From Auricularia sp. M13 (Eukaryota; Basidiomycota; Agaricomycetes; Auriculariales; Auriculariaceae): DNA of 64,000 bases. This document shows, piece by piece, positions 30,369-60,995 of the stretch; position 1 is the first letter of the stretch; each line of letters starts with the position of its first letter. Location: assembly GCA_037042915.1 (NCBI GenBank), contig CM073196.1, positions 3,472,001 to 3,536,000 on the forward strand. Reading direction: 5' to 3'. Under the pieces are notes generated by a model. The model had not been told where the DNA came from. It did no database searches and worked only from the letters and a program-made list of their open reading frames with translations. The position numbers and the translations under genes are program-made.

Positions 30369-30947
30369 ATGTTCCGCACGGCCACTATTTCAATTACCCA
30401 CGCACGTCGAGTGGCGGCGCGCCACGCACATCGTTCATTCTCGTCGTCGCGCCCGGTCTCTGAAATATTCCACTCCGCGACGCCCGAGGTGGAGACACGT
30501 CCTCCCGATGACCTGCCGTTCCGTTAGCTAACACGGCCAATATTGAAGACACTGGACAAAGTCATTCAGGATAGCTCCAAGACGGACAGACGCGTCATTG
30601 TTGACTTCTATGCTGAGTGCGCAAAGTCGATAACCTTTGCCAGCCCGTGTCATTGTCGTTTTCAGTTGGTGTGGCCCGTGTAAGACGTTGTCTCCGGCAA
30701 TTGAACGCGTCGCAAAAGATGAATCATTGAACGTCGATCTCGTTACAATCGACATTGACCAGCATACGACCCTGGCACAACAATATCAGGTATGTCTTAT
30801 GAAGTTTACTGCAATGGTTCATTTTCATGGTAAATACAGGTCACCGCGGTCCCCACTGTCGTGGGCTTTCGCAATGGAGCCGCCAAGAGCAAATTCATCG
30901 GCGCTTTGCCCGAACCAGCTATTCGCAAGTTCTGCGAGGATTTGTAA
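30369..30947 (+). CDS. Thioredoxin with mitochondrial presequence
   Basis: Exons 30369-30488, 30549-30616, 30666-30789 and 30840-30947 give 139 residues. The first 35 residues are Arg/Ser-rich and lack acidic residues (HARRVAARHAHRSFSSSRP), a typical mitochondrial targeting signal. The fold is complete: VIVDFYADWCGPCKTLSP with the redox pair CGPC, DIDQHTTLAQQYQV, and the cis-proline loop AVPTVVGFRNG. The Asp-Trp junction arises across intron 2 (30617-30665). It is divergent from the cupredoxin gene by 251 bases and tail-to-tail with the thioredoxin-like/UBR gene by 94 bases. Confidence 0.93.
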
Positions 30948-31041
30948 TGTGCGGCCTCTATTGAAGCAACTGTTTCCATTTACACTGGCAGCGCGTTCAT
31001 ATCCTCTGATAGCTGCTATCGGCGTTACAGGCTGTCCGTTG

Positions 31042-32502
31042 CTAGTCTGAATCCGAATCACCCATGGCGCTCACAACCATGGCGGCGAACAAGTCGTTGA
31101 GGTCGCTCGGTGCCGCGCTTGTGTCTCCTTCCGCCTTGTGTTTCTGGCACTGGACTCCGAGACTCTTCCCATTTGCCATCGTACCGCAGTCGCAATATGC
31201 TCGACCATTGGAAGCCATACGTGTTACGATCCTGTGGCCTGGATGCTGGCTCCTGTAGAAGCAATGGCTGCAGTAATCGACGGGGCTGTCCTTATTGCAC
31301 GTCCTATATCTAATCGTCAAATTGAACATACGTGCGCGTTTTGGCTCACGTACATGCACGTGTGGATCGTCTCTCCCTCCAGGCTCCAGTGCCCGCACAC
31401 GCCTTTGACGCTGCCTTGCAACGCCCTGTGCGACTGGGGATCGCGCGACTGGACATACGGCAACGTGTGGAGGAGCAGCGGGCGCACTTCGCGCCGAATG
31501 CGCGCGGCAACTTGAACCCCCTCCACGGAACTAGGCAACGTGCGCCAGAACGTCAACGCCGTCGTCTCGTTCCAACCCGGCGGTGGCCTGGGATAGCGCG
31601 TATCTGTTGTGGTGCTCCTTGTCGGTTTTGGACGTCGCAGATCCGCCAGGGCGTTTTCGATATCATCCCTGATTTCGTCGATGTCCTCTCCCTTGGTCTG
31701 AGAGTCTGATCAGTAACATTGGTCGTACGGCGCTTGGGTTCGCACCCTTCTGTGCCCGTCCTTTACGAATGTCAAAGTCGTCGGGCATTTAATGTTCAAG
31801 CTTCGAGCAAGGAGCCCCAATTCGAACCGAGCTGTGTCGGTGAAGAAAATCTTGACGCTCGGCATTTGGACTCTGAGAACACGGAGCTTCTCTCGGAAGC
31901 TGGCTGACAGTGGTGACCTGCAGTAAACCAGTCACGTCCAATGTCATGGACGACCAGCAGAATATTTGACTTACGACTTCTCATTCGTGAAGATAATAAC
32001 AGAAACGCGATGGCCTTTCTCGACCTCCGAGATCTCTTTGCGCACGGCTGGGGCGGCGCCGTGAGTGCATTGAACCGAGCCCAGACTCTCACATACCATC
32101 AGGCGTGGCAAGCTCTACGAGGCCCAGGGACGCCAGCGGTGCGAGCTTTTGCTTCCCTCTGTTTGAGTCCGAGCTCGAGGAGCTGTCGTGGCCGCCAGCG
32201 GCCATGCAGCGGGCAGCCGGCACCAGCAAGCCGCGCAGGCTCTCGATCTGCAGGACGACGCTGCGGAACTCGGCGGCGAGCACCTGGTCCGCCCTGCGCT
32301 GCCGCAGCACCTGCAGGAGCTCACGCGACCACCGCGGCGAGGACTTGATGCGCGCGATCGTCTCCTCCTCGACGCATGTCTCGACAGCCCAGAGGATATC
32401 CTCGATGACCGGGTCGAGCGCGTCGAGGAGCTGCGACAGCGGGCGCGAGCCGAAGAGCTCTTTGACGACGTCGTTGGTCGGTGTGGGCGACGGAGCCGGC
32501 AT
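31042..32502 (-). CDS. Novel fusion: conserved helical N-domain, thioredoxin-like fold without CxxC, UBR-type zinc box
   Basis: Exons on the minus strand: 32502-32097, 32047-31975, 31917-31746, 31697-31360, 31303-31042, giving 416 residues. Residues 10-85 form a helical domain (DVVKELFG, LDALDPVIEDILW) shared with the protein at 55661-56901. Residues about 140-240 have a thioredoxin-like order: VSVIIFTNEKS in place of the CxxC turn, SLNIKCPTTLTFVKDGHRR like the cis-Pro strand, then an acidic helix. From about 317, VCGHWSLEGET, TCNKDSPVDYCSHCF, HPGH and YCDCG match a UBR box, the N-degron reader of N-recognins. The last intron could instead end at 31314 (acceptor gattag). One canonical Cys position is His or Tyr depending on this choice. 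No RING is present. The ligase partner and substrate are unknown. Confidence 0.72.
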
Positions 32503-55660: not shown

Positions 55661-56901
55661 TCAATGGATGGGTGAGACCCATTGCATGATTAGCCCGGGA
55701 TCAAGAAAGACATCCTCTTGATGAAGCGGGACTATGAACTGCGGTAAAATGGACTCCTGCTCCGGGACTGGAGGTGCGTCCACATTAGGCTGCACTGGAA
55801 GCTGTGGCTTGCCACCGCCATCAACAAGTTCAGTGATCTGCTCCGGCTCTGCCGTCAATGCAGCACATGAAATTGGAATGGGCGGACTAATGGGTGGAGA
55901 CTCCTTTGGGCCCGATGCTGTGGAGTCGCCAGCGGCGGAAAGGGTGGTCTTGCGCCCGAAGAGGTACTTGCGAACGCGACGAACATTTGGTCCGTCGACC
56001 TGCGAAGCATGTGAGAATCTTGCGCGCATCGTCAACAAATACGCTCACCCGACGAAACCCGTTTGCCAGTATAATCAGGACAGTAGGGAAATCAACTATG
56101 GGATCTCCAATTATGCTCTCTGCGCGAGCGCGTACAGCGGCAATGGTGATGGTCATGAACCTTGCTTTTCGAAGGGAATCCGCGTCTCCGCGGCACTCTT
56201 TCGCTAACTGAGACATCTCCGCGACGAAGTCTTCGGGCAGCAATACTCTACGCGCTTTAAGATTGGTAGCCACGCGAAGAAGGCACGACGACGCACGCGG
56301 GGTCGAAGAATGTTACGACAAGCGGTTTGGCACCATCCTTCAATACTGCTAGGGCCTCGCGCTCCCACTCTGTTGCGGATATCAGACTACTATCACGAAG
56401 ATTGTCTGTGAACTCACGGGAAGGGTGCTTGATTTCGGGGAATGAGAGCGTGCGAGTCTTACTGCGCTCTATTGAAGGCCGCAATAACTCCCTTGACTGC
56501 AAGAGGACTTCGCTGGTCGGAGCCTGTGGCAAAGTCGACTGCCGCTTCGCTGATGGACGTGCGACCTTCTCGGTCGAAGACTCCGTTGAGAGCACGAGTT
56601 TCTTCAAGTCACCATGCTCAGATACTGCGTCGCGAAATGCCTGGCTGAGATCCAGATTCTCGACGTGCGAACGAAGGTATAGCACGAGCTCGCGTGCTGG
56701 GCGCTTCGCCGTCTTTATCTGGCGAAAATCGTCGACACCGATGTGGTCGATAACCTTCCAGAGAATCGCTTCGACGTGTGGATCGAGCGCAGCAAGGAGC
56801 TCAGAGAACGGTTTCTGTGTGCCGAATAGCTCCTTGACGACATCCTGAATTTGGGATGCAGCAGCGGTCGAAGAGCTTCGCCTGTGAAGTGGGAGAGTCA
56901 T
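55661..56901 (-). CDS. Paralogue of the helical/thioredoxin-like protein, without UBR box
   Basis: Exons on the minus strand: 56901-56297, 56247-56049, 55999-55661, giving 380 residues. The N-terminal domain (QDVVKELFG, ELLAALDPHVEAILWKV, REL) aligns with the protein at 31042-32502. After a basic/Ser insert, LKDGAKPLVVTFFDPAVLLP and VDFPTVLIILANGFRR give the thioredoxin-like start and cis-Pro strand, again with no CxxC. Two introns match the other gene in position and phase: one after the first beta strand (phase 2) and one after the RR following the last strand (phase 0). The C-terminal 110 residues are Pro-rich and unlike the UBR tail. An ATG at 56943 would add 14 residues. The function is unknown. 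Confidence 0.72.
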
Positions 56902-57103: not shown

Positions 57104-60100
57104 TTACAACGCACTGTGCTCTAGGAGCAAACCCTGTAATCTATCCCCGATACTATCGTCACCATGAGATCTCAACCACTCCAGGCGCCTTCCACACGTC
57201 TCGCCCTTCGCGACTGTCGGTCCAGACGGGGTACAACCACCGTACAAGACGATTTCGCGCACGACATCCACCGATCCCTGAGCCACTACTACGTGGAGAA
57301 GCCTGAGGCGCGTGTTGTCCGCTCCCTCGGGGTGAAGGTCCGGCCAGATAGTGCACGCGACGTGGTGCACGCACATCGCGCGCAGGAAGTCCCGCACCTC
57401 GCCCTTGAGTAGCGCACCCAGCATGGCGCCTAGAACCTCCGGATTGCTTTCGATGGGCTGCATGAACTCCATCGGGCCGTCCGCGAGTAGATTCGGCACA
57501 TGGACGCTGATGTTCTTCAGCGTCACGCGGAACTCCGAGAACAACAGATTGCGATAGTCGTGCGCGTAGCGCATTGCCAATGGCGGTATAAGCAATGTCG
57601 TGAATACCGGATGCGAGAACGAAATCGCGTCGTAGAGTGTGACGAAATCTGTGTAAAATTGAAAGAACGGTGTGCCTGGCCCCAAGTATCGAGCAGCAAC
57701 CTCCTCGATGTTCCCGACGGGGGACGAGCTCTGCCCACGGTTTGCGACGGTAAATGGGCGGAGGAGATCACGCATCCGTGCTTCCACGACATCATCTCTG
57801 AAGACTTCTTGAGATGAGACCGATGAGTCCTGGCCATGCTCCAGCATAAAGATACGCATGCAACCGAACACCGCCTCCTCGCGGCTGAGGCGCAACTGTG
57901 CCACCTCAGAGAAACCAGACCTGGCAATCGACCGTTGTATGATCTGCACGAACAATAGTGAGGCGCGGACGACGTCGGTTTCCGTAGCATCCCAGCCGGG
58001 AGGGAGATTATGGAAGACAGGAGAGGTCCCGGACTGCAACAACTCAGTCAACGGCCAGAAAGGCCAATCATTGGAGGGAGGCATGCTCGCCACACCGAGC
58101 AGCGGCGGAAGTGTCTGCGAATCCGCATTCTTTATAGAATCCGGAGATGGTGTCCATGGAGGAAGATAAGGGGCAGATTTCCGACGAAGCGAGTATAGTA
58201 GGAAAGGCTCGAGATCTAGCAAAGCATCGTCCCTCCAAGAGACTGGAACGGGCATGTCTAGGGATGTGAATAGTCCAGGTCCAATTATGCGCAGTGTCGA
58301 GCGTATGATGGATGCAGCAAGGTCTTCGTCGCCTGGCAGAAGCACACGGAATATGGATGCTGAAGTAGCGACCAGATTAAGGGCGTCGAACCTGCTGGTG
58401 ACCGAAACCAATGCATGCAGCGAGTATAAAAAGGAAGTCAGGGGACGTAGCAGAGTATAAAGCCGCGGGAGTCCAGCCAAACCCTTTTGAAGACGAACGA
58501 GATATGCAGGCGCCGTCGTCAGCAAAGAAGTCAACGCCGCGTCTGCGCTCAGCAAAGAGGCCAGAGGACCTGGAGCCCCGGGCTTTGCGGTAGCAACGGC
58601 AAGTCGTACGGCCTGATGTAAGACCGAGGCATGCTCGTGAATCAGCTTGAACCGTTGCTGCGTGTGGTCGGTTGCGTCCACGTCGTTGGAAGTCAGAGCA
58701 TCCGACAAGCCTCGAACGGCCCCTTCCACGATTGCGCGCTCGTGTCCTGCCCGGAAGCCTTCTAAAAACGCAGCTGTCGCACGGTCCTTCTCGTCCGAGC
58801 CCGCGCGTAGGCTGTTCAGCTTGCACCCATCCAGCCACGCCGCGGTCGCGGCCCACAGGTCAGCATGCACGGCGGGCGTGCATTCCGCGGCGGCAAGCAT
58901 CCCACGCACGGCAAGTAGCTCACCGCCCCAGTCCCAGCCCGCGACCTGCGACCACAACAGGTCGTGCTCGGGCGTCGTCTTGTGCGGGTCGGTCGCGCAC
59001 ACCGTCCACGCTTCCGTCAGGCGCAGGAACGCGCGCAGCACCTCGATCTGCGGGGCCGACAGGTCCGTTTTGAGTGCCTGCTGGAGGTTGGAGAAGTGCT
59101 CCGACGCAATGCTGACGACATTCGAGTATAGGCCGTATCGCGCGAGACACTCGTAGAAGCGCAAAGTCTCTGCGACGAGCGCGAGCTCGAGCGGTGTTCC
59201 TTGCGCGTTGAAAGTGACGACATAGCGCAGGAGCGAGTCGGCCACCTCGATGAGTGATAATGCGTGCTCGCGACTCGATGCTGCGAGCGCGCGGAAGATC
59301 GTAATGGCGAGCGGGTTGGGCTGAACTGGAAGACCGTCGTGACTGCCTTGGCCGTGCTGGGTCGGTAAAAATAGGCGAGAGAGAGCCTGCAGCAGGCCAT
59401 CGAAAGAGATAACTGTCTTGCACGTTTCGAGCGAGTGGCGTACCAACCGGTAGAGGATGGCGAGCAGCTGCTCGAGCGTCTCGGCGGGCAGGGCGGCATG
59501 CGCGAACTGGGCCTTCATGTGCGCCAATAGTTGCGGGAGAGGAAGGGAAGAAAGTGCGGACGATGTGGACGTGTTCTCGACGGGAACGTCCAGCCAGACG
59601 TCTGGGATAGAGAGTAAGCCCTGGTCCCATCCCACTATGCCCTCCCAAACAACGTCAACGGCGCGAACGCCAAGGCTGCCAGGCTCGCCGAGAGCATCGA
59701 TGGCCGCGTCCAATATTCGTCCGCGCACAACGTCCCGCCCGCCGTCTATACCCAGATTAAGCTCGTCCAATGTGCCGGCACGAAGCTGGCGGACGATGCT
59801 TGCCAGCACGCCCAGCATCGTCGCACGTTGAGCTGGAACGGTGGAATGAGAGAGCAGGAGTACGTCTTCAAGCGTGTAGCCGGCGCGCGAGCCCTGTGCA
59901 TGGTGATGGAGGCCGAGATGCGAAGGAAGCGTATCGACGAGCTCGGCAGGTATCGCCTGGCCCTTCAAGTCGAATCGAGCGCGCGCGTCGTCTGAAGCAC
60001 CCTCCGGCTGCTTCATCCATTCGAGAGAAGGATTGTCCATCGGTTCATTGGGGAAGAAGCGAGCGCGGATGGCGGCAGGTTCGTCCTCCGAGGCAGCTGG

Positions 60101-60995
60101 CCCTGAGTCTGTGCCTGCGAAATCCATGTCCGTGGGCTCATCGACCTGAGCGGGATGCGATGCCATGGGAACGTAGCTGAGCTTCTGTACTGGAACGCCC
60201 GCGTCTTCTTCGGATGGCGGGGCAAGCAGTCCAAGGACTCTGCGTGGTGACGAAGGCTGCGACTCGTAGACATGAACGTCCTGCGGCTGCAGCTCCTGAA
60301 AGCTGACTTTGCGAGGCGTTGTTCGCGGCACGGAAGATCGCAAAGCGGATCTCGAAGGCGTAGCGGGTCGTGAGGATAGTGGTGTTTCAACTACAAAATT
60401 ATAAGCGTGTGAACAGTGCAGTGTCGCTCGAGCGTACCAGGTGTGCTCAATGCTTTTGGCAAAGGTTCCCCCTCGGTAGCGATCGATAACAAGCGATTCT
60501 GAGCTGGCTGTCGATCTGGAATGTGTCAGCAAGCACCTATATTTCCGGTGAGTCAAACTACGCACCTTGCGCACGCTTTCGCTCTCTCGCAGCGCGCGCT
60601 CGTTGCAGCAGGTCGCCCACGCCGTCGCCAAGAGTATCAAATATCTCAGAAATTGCTTGTTGACGTTGCTCGGCAGTCATATTTTCGATGGCAGTCGTGT
60701 TCTGCTGGTCTATCTGCTGTCGCCAATCCTCCGCAACTCTTCCGTCATGCTCAGCATCGGATGAGGAAGAGGTCTGGACGGCTCCTGGAGCCGTGGAAAG
60801 TACTGCTGGCGCAGCGGACGGCCTGGCGCCCATGCCTGGCTTTTGTTGCATCTGACGCGCCCGGGCGAATGCACTTTGCGATCTGTGTTTCGCAACCGGA
60901 AACCCCTTGGCAGAGGTTGAAGACGATGGTGAGGGCGCGTTGGGCAATACATTACTGCGTGGCCTCTCGACGATGCCGCCAATCAAACTGGACAT
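57104..60995 (-). CDS. RNA polymerase II-associated protein 1 (RPAP1)
   Basis: Exons on the minus strand: 60995-60566, 60515-60438, 60390-57104, giving 1264 residues. The RPAP1 N-terminal motif is seen as NMTAEQRQQAISEIFDTLGD. The central signature ARFDLKGQAIPAELVDTLPS followed by LGLHHHAQGSRAGYTLEDVL is diagnostic. A long helical-repeat body follows, ending with the RPAP1 C-domain-like RNLLFSEFRVTL and HVPNLLADGPMEFMQP. The protein links RNA polymerase II to chaperone/GPN-type assembly and import factors. The last exon of 3.3 kb is uninterrupted, unlike most genes here. Confidence 0.9.

Follow-up and report, generated by a model that had tools for sequence, protein, structure and literature searches.

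Very large ligases are the main known carriers of UBR boxes, and the small UBR-box proteins UBR7 and Mlo2 carry a PHD finger. Redox-inactive thioredoxin folds, for their part, serve as binding platforms, as in the UAS domain of UBX proteins, in Dim1 and in the phosducin-like proteins. In the majority of UBR-box proteins, automated searches recognise no further domain, according to the available text of Kaur and Subramanian (PMC4506424). The available text of another study (PMC10687169) describes the zinc sites of the box as Zn1, held by two Cys and two His, and Zn2/Zn3, held by six Cys and one His (His166), and assigns two pocket residues in UBR2, with Asp150 holding the N-terminal amine and Asp153 selecting arginine; the substitution D153A, as cited there, abolishes binding in both UBR1 and UBR2. 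In the same text UBR7 belongs to a subfamily with Cys in place of that His among its zinc ligands, while in UBR4 Cys1724 replaces His166 and Phe1671 and Phe1713 take aromatics, Phe1671, the second aromatic of the pocket, being described as unique to UBR4.

We analysed a window of 64,000 nucleotides from the fungus Auricularia sp. M13 (contig CM073196.1; the window is this whole stretch), which contains a gene, here gene A, whose 418-residue product consists, in order, of a helical domain, a thioredoxin-like domain without CxxC, a linker and a UBR box. Like UBR1 and UBR2, which belong to the His166 subfamily, the gene A box retains 11 of 11 zinc-ligand positions including His166 together with Asp150, and the boxes of these two proteins are its best solved relatives (E 1.2e-7); unlike them, gene A is small, has no ClpS or RING match (Pfam), has Asp153 replaced and is fused to a thioredoxin-like domain. 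With UBR4 it has in common a changed arginine site, found in both gene A and its paralogue C, which makes an altered choice of ligand conceivable, but A and C keep the His, the position of Phe1713 holds Tyr in A and Met in C, and by eye neither has an aromatic at Phe1671. The likeness to UBR7 and Mlo2 lies in being a small UBR-box protein, whereas no PHD match was obtained in A, B or C (Pfam) and the zinc ligands of A and C are of the His subfamily. With the UAS, Dim1 and phosducin-like proteins gene A shares a thioredoxin-like fold without CxxC, but Pfam gave no UBX, UBA or phosducin match in A, B or C, and the profile of the domain lies nearest to ordinary thioredoxins. Among the titles and abstract openings listed, no description of a UBR-thioredoxin fusion architecture was found; the family may already sit in fungal protein databases as unannotated entries.

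Gene structure of gene A

The initial annotation placed a five-exon gene on the minus strand at 31042-32502, and our gene model agrees with this span and exon number. Exon 1 (32097..32502, minus strand, as are all exons given here) opens with the start codon at 32502 and encodes the helical N-terminal domain and a linker, and is conserved in the paralogues B and C. Exon 2 (31975..32047) encodes the first strand of the thioredoxin-like domain, its 3' end lying at the degenerate active site, and exon 3 (31746..31917) the body of that domain, with SSPL replacing CxxC and KCPTT at the cis-Pro loop. Exon 4 (31354..31697) supplies the last thioredoxin-like helix, a conserved linker (LLHTLPY) and the start of the UBR box, and exon 5 (31042..31303) the remainder of the box, an acidic tail and the stop. 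The four introns measure 49, 57, 48 and 50 nt; all splice sites of genes A, B and C were modelled from sequence.

The join of exon 3 (31917-31746) to the exon beginning at 31697 had been regarded as doubtful, the intervening 48-nt intron (GTGCGA...CTCAG) containing an in-frame TGA. It withstood the comparison with the paralogues: a phase-0 intron lies at the same aligned place in all three models (GHRR|T in A, GFRR|V in B and GFFR|T in C), and the intron after exon 2 likewise falls in each, in phase 2, within the codon of the degenerate active site; these common intron places support the disputed join, which the thioredoxin match also crosses. The end of exon 4, in contrast, had to be moved from 31360, which was rejected because a zinc ligand is lost there and kept with the donor at 31353. 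The corrected exon ends at 31354 (donor GTACGT, acceptor ATATAG, HTC|MTC), giving a product of 418 rather than 416 residues. When the in-frame GT/GC..AG choices for the exon 4-to-5 join were enumerated (86 in total), a single one, with the donor at 31353 and the acceptor before 31303, kept both CGHWSLEGE and a C-x2-C ahead of the second knuckle; another, with the donor at 31392, also made a C-x2-C but dropped most of the CGHWSLEGE stretch.

The three parts proposed earlier for the protein were recovered. The helical N-terminal domain (32218..32475, minus strand) covers approximately residues 10-95, the thioredoxin-like domain (31635..32039, minus strand) residues 139-238 across exons 2-4, as defined by sequence and profile matches, and the UBR box (31138..31397, minus strand) residues 318-387 across exons 4 and 5. 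In a Pfam scan of gene A, zf-UBR was the one family above the cut-off; sub-threshold matches to VSP (E 0.046) and Npun_R1517 (E 0.19) were disregarded. In line with the RING-less protein of the initial annotation, no ligase domain was recognised in gene A: no RING, HECT or U-box profile was matched at E<=10 in Pfam, and with the same models and threshold no ligase domain, including the RING, HECT or similar module of type-1 N-recognins, was recognised in B or C either. A membrane segment is indicated in none of the three proteins, no 19-residue stretch exceeding a mean Kyte-Doolittle value of 1.5. A and C have in common a conserved linker ahead of the box, and in a single-sequence structure model the region between the thioredoxin-like domain and the UBR box has a pLDDT of 44.

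Paralogues in the same genome

The genome comprises 52 Mb in 14 contigs; its short introns and one hydrophobin domain match fit a fungus, most probably a basidiomycete. Our comparison is one of three paralogues within it. Searching it with the A protein returned nine matches at E<=10, comprising gene A itself (four), gene C (three), gene B (one) and a Ubr1-like gene (one, E 0.08). Searches with C (nine matches) and B (five matches) added no further gene among the best candidates scored, a survey that distant members could escape. Gene B (55661..56901, minus strand; exons 56901-56297, 56247-56049 and 55999-55661; 380 aa) lies about 23 kb from A on the same strand and combines the helical domain with a thioredoxin-like domain that has diverged; it lacks a UBR box and has a different tail. 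Gene C (contig C1, L013 1651-3201) has four exons and 465 residues and contains all four parts of A in the same order. By these models, gene A is intact and belongs to a small family of paralogues in the genome of this fungus, and the fusion of a thioredoxin-like domain with a UBR box is real, with corrected edges, since a second gene of the same build (C) stands in the same genome.

The Ubr1-like gene (contig C5, L001 1106-2046) gave zf-UBR and ClpS matches. Its modelled intron at L001 1462-1514 interrupts the same codon of the UBR box, in the same phase 2, as the intron at 31304-31353 of the window in gene A and its counterpart in C, in each of which it falls in the codon after the second zinc Cys. 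This common intron suggests, but does not prove, that the boxes of A, C and the Ubr1-like gene share ancestry. An ATE1 domain was also matched in the genome, and this match together with the Ubr1-like gene and its zf-UBR and ClpS matches indicates that the Arg/N-degron pathway is probably present. A genome search for a UBR4-type ligase (PF13764) gave no match, and its control was equally empty, so that this absence carries no weight.

A thioredoxin-like domain without CxxC

Residues 139-238 of gene A matched the solved designed protein E_1r26 (2nbs, E 1.4e-7), which we take to have been designed on a thioredoxin backbone, and the same single-sequence query also matched 6iev (E 1.7e-4). The reversed query gave one match, to a designed helix bundle (E 0.0015); single-sequence matches to designed proteins at about 1e-3 were therefore not trusted, and the weight given to 6iev was lowered, that of 2nbs less so. 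Because designed proteins can attract chance matches, a profile was built from the three paralogues. At E<=10 it matched 29 solved sequences; of these, 23 bear the name thioredoxin, thioredoxin-like or glutaredoxin-3, three are designed proteins and three are others. The best natural match was 2vim (E 1.5e-4), while the reversed profile, used as a control, gave none.

Taken singly, the domain of C gave 15 matches at E<=10 (12 with thioredoxin or glutaredoxin-3-type names, the best of these at E 0.21), and that of B gave two among solved structures, both coactosin-like (E 1.1) and neither a thioredoxin. A profile made from A and C only nevertheless found B at E 1.5e-5 (full protein) whereas 200 shuffled versions of its domain reached 0.24 at best, and by this comparison the diverged thioredoxin-like domain of B belongs to the A/C family. 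None of the Pfam thioredoxin models exceeded its cut-off on A, B or C, Thioredoxin_8 reaching E 0.068 for C. The place of CxxC is occupied by SSPL in A, AVLL in B and SSPA in C, with no Cys pair in any of them, and the Pro-Thr of the cis-Pro loop is invariant across the three sequences. As gene A illustrates, the partner of a UBR box that is missed by Pfam's models can be a thioredoxin fold.

Zinc ligands and pocket of the UBR box

The profile check suggested for the box (PF02207) returned a clear zf-UBR match in gene A (43.9 bits, E 2.6e-11) and another in C (35.8 bits, E 8.9e-9), against a curated cut-off of 25.2 bits. The altered position that had been read in the box, Cys to His or Tyr, proved to be a splice artefact: with the corrected join, the zinc-ligand positions of A hold Cys or His as in UBR2 in 11 of 11 cases, and the same count was obtained for C and for the Ubr1-like gene. 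The eight Cys and three His expected of a UBR box for three zinc ions are thus present in A and C, and their tally at each zinc site matches that of PMC10687169; apart from His166, the UBR2 numbering of the ligands is presumed. Cys121, the twelfth Cys/His of the UBR2 box, is missing from all three fungal boxes. Over the aligned boxes, A and C have 25 of 81 residues in common, and retention of all 11 ligands by chance would have a probability of ~4e-7 (hypergeometric).

In the pocket, the Asp150 position is Asp in both A and C, the Asp153 position is Thr in A and Arg in C, and the Phe148 position is Tyr in A and Met in C. The Ubr1-like box shows the reverse at the two acidic positions, with His at 150 (CCHCGD) and Asp at 153. 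With the Asp153-type residue gone, the box of A would not be selective for N-terminal arginine, and, Asp150 being kept and Asp153 lost, gene A appears less likely to be a classical Arg/Lys/His reader than the initial annotation implied.

The helical N-terminal domain

The N-terminal domain of A is 35% identical to that of B and 41% identical to that of C. Its predicted structure (model pLDDT 72.6) has six main helices and looks similar to death-fold (CARD) domains. This resemblance to CARD domains is confined to the predicted arrangement, since no CARD was matched by Pfam and the profile-profile score did not rise above controls: hhalign of the domain against CARD scored 11.4, a value reached by 57 of 200 column-permuted targets and surpassed by both reversed controls (12.8 and 12.1), whereas the positive control for the CARD profile recovered 56 of 56 CARD splits. 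Membership of the CARD family by sequence was accordingly rejected. CARD and PYD are listed as animal NLR modules in the available text of PMC10197012.

Possible function of gene A

From sequence we establish the gene structure and domain content, the loss of CxxC, a full set of zinc ligands, the change at Asp153 and the existence of paralogues; the binding of a ligand, the adaptor role and the roles of the thioredoxin-like and helical domains we infer. The reading that we favour, tentatively, is that gene A encodes a UBR-box adaptor with no intrinsic ligase activity, which would read non-arginine N-termini or another ligand and use a redox-dead thioredoxin as scaffold. The UBR box would fold around three zinc ions and hold a partner, probably a free protein N-terminus gripped via the Asp150-type residue; the thioredoxin-like domain, incapable of dithiol chemistry, would provide a rigid scaffold for protein binding; docking or self-association may fall to the N-terminal helical domain; and the ligand would be passed on to another factor or protected from Ubr1. 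A protein this small, in which a complete box with an altered arginine site is paired with a redox-dead scaffold and no ligase domain is recognised, would be naturally suited to act as adaptor or decoy in N-terminus recognition.

The main rival to the adaptor reading is that the box does not read N-termini and is instead a zinc module for structure or protein-protein contacts, the whole protein acting as a scaffold in an unrelated process, which we regard as doubtful yet well worth considering. Not all UBR boxes bind N-degrons, as stated in the available text of Kaur and Subramanian (PMC4506424), Asp153 is lost in both A and C, a loss that, given the effect of D153A in UBR1 and UBR2, could mean that no N-terminus is bound, and paralogue B has no box at all; yet Asp150 and all 11 zinc ligands persist in A and C although the two boxes have diverged to 25 of 81 common residues, and the pocket side of the box therefore appears to be under selection. 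The pocket also bears on the idea that gene A is a decoy or regulator of Ubr1, competing for the same N-degrons and tuning the Arg/N-degron pathway. Here the ATE1 match, the zf-UBR and ClpS matches of the Ubr1-like gene, and the box fold and phase-2 intron placement that this gene and A have in common in their models would fit, but A departs from the UBR1/UBR2 pocket at the residue that selects arginine, and the Ubr1-like box has a change of its own at 150 (Asp to His), meaning that the ligands of the two may differ, and we consider such competition unlikely.

That gene A is instead an atypical ubiquitin ligase, with direct E2 recruitment by the UBR box or the conserved linker in the manner of the UBR4 hemiRING, seems improbable to us: UBR4 does set a precedent for unrecognised E3 modules in UBR-box proteins (available text of PMC10873205), and A and C have both retained the LLHTLPY linker, for which the structure model is of low confidence (pLDDT 44), but A, B and C match no RING, HECT or U-box profile at E<=10 (Pfam) and the UBR box is the only zinc-ligand cluster recognised. 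Least credible by far is the proposal that the model merges two neighbouring genes, the first having a transcript that stops at the TGA at 31710-31712 and the second being a UBR gene in its own right. The intron between exons 3 and 4 does have a weaker donor (GTGCGA) and a length divisible by three, but gene C carries the same parts in the same order, the modelled phase-0 introns of B and C align with this one, and the thioredoxin match continues past the join into exon 4; we rejected the two-gene reading on the introns held in common with the paralogues.

A bolder extension, which we consider distinctly unlikely, would make A and C signalling proteins that assemble through a CARD-like death-fold domain and also contain a redox-dead thioredoxin scaffold and a UBR box reading N-termini. 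If so, the box would read the exposure of a new N-terminus, such as one left by proteolytic cleavage, and death-fold assembly would relay it, giving an N-degron sensor that triggers assembly rather than a ligase, with the box-less B as partner or brake. The binding preference of gene A and any effect on N-degron turnover are directly testable, the protein being small and the genome holding two such genes and a box-less relative.

Genomic surroundings

At 30634-30948 (plus strand) the window contains part of an ordinary thioredoxin gene (CGPC; PF00085, E 7.4e-11), which converges with gene A at a distance of about 95 bases. Derivation of A's thioredoxin-like domain from this neighbour found no support, as comparison of the two gave three local matches of 7, 18 and 3 residues, at E of at least 8.2, none of them to A's domain. 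Of 13 Pfam thioredoxin matches, the one nearest to gene C lies approximately 0.5 Mb from it. A tblastn search for relatives found none among 55 pattern stretches in viral contigs and 139 in prokaryote genomes, neither set being expected to hold fungi. Upstream of gene B, a long open frame at 57107-60676 (minus strand) matches RPAP1, the RNA polymerase II-associated protein 1, and the frames on either side of gene C (L013 429-1145 and 3453-4031) belong to an SBF-family transporter and a tyrosinase.
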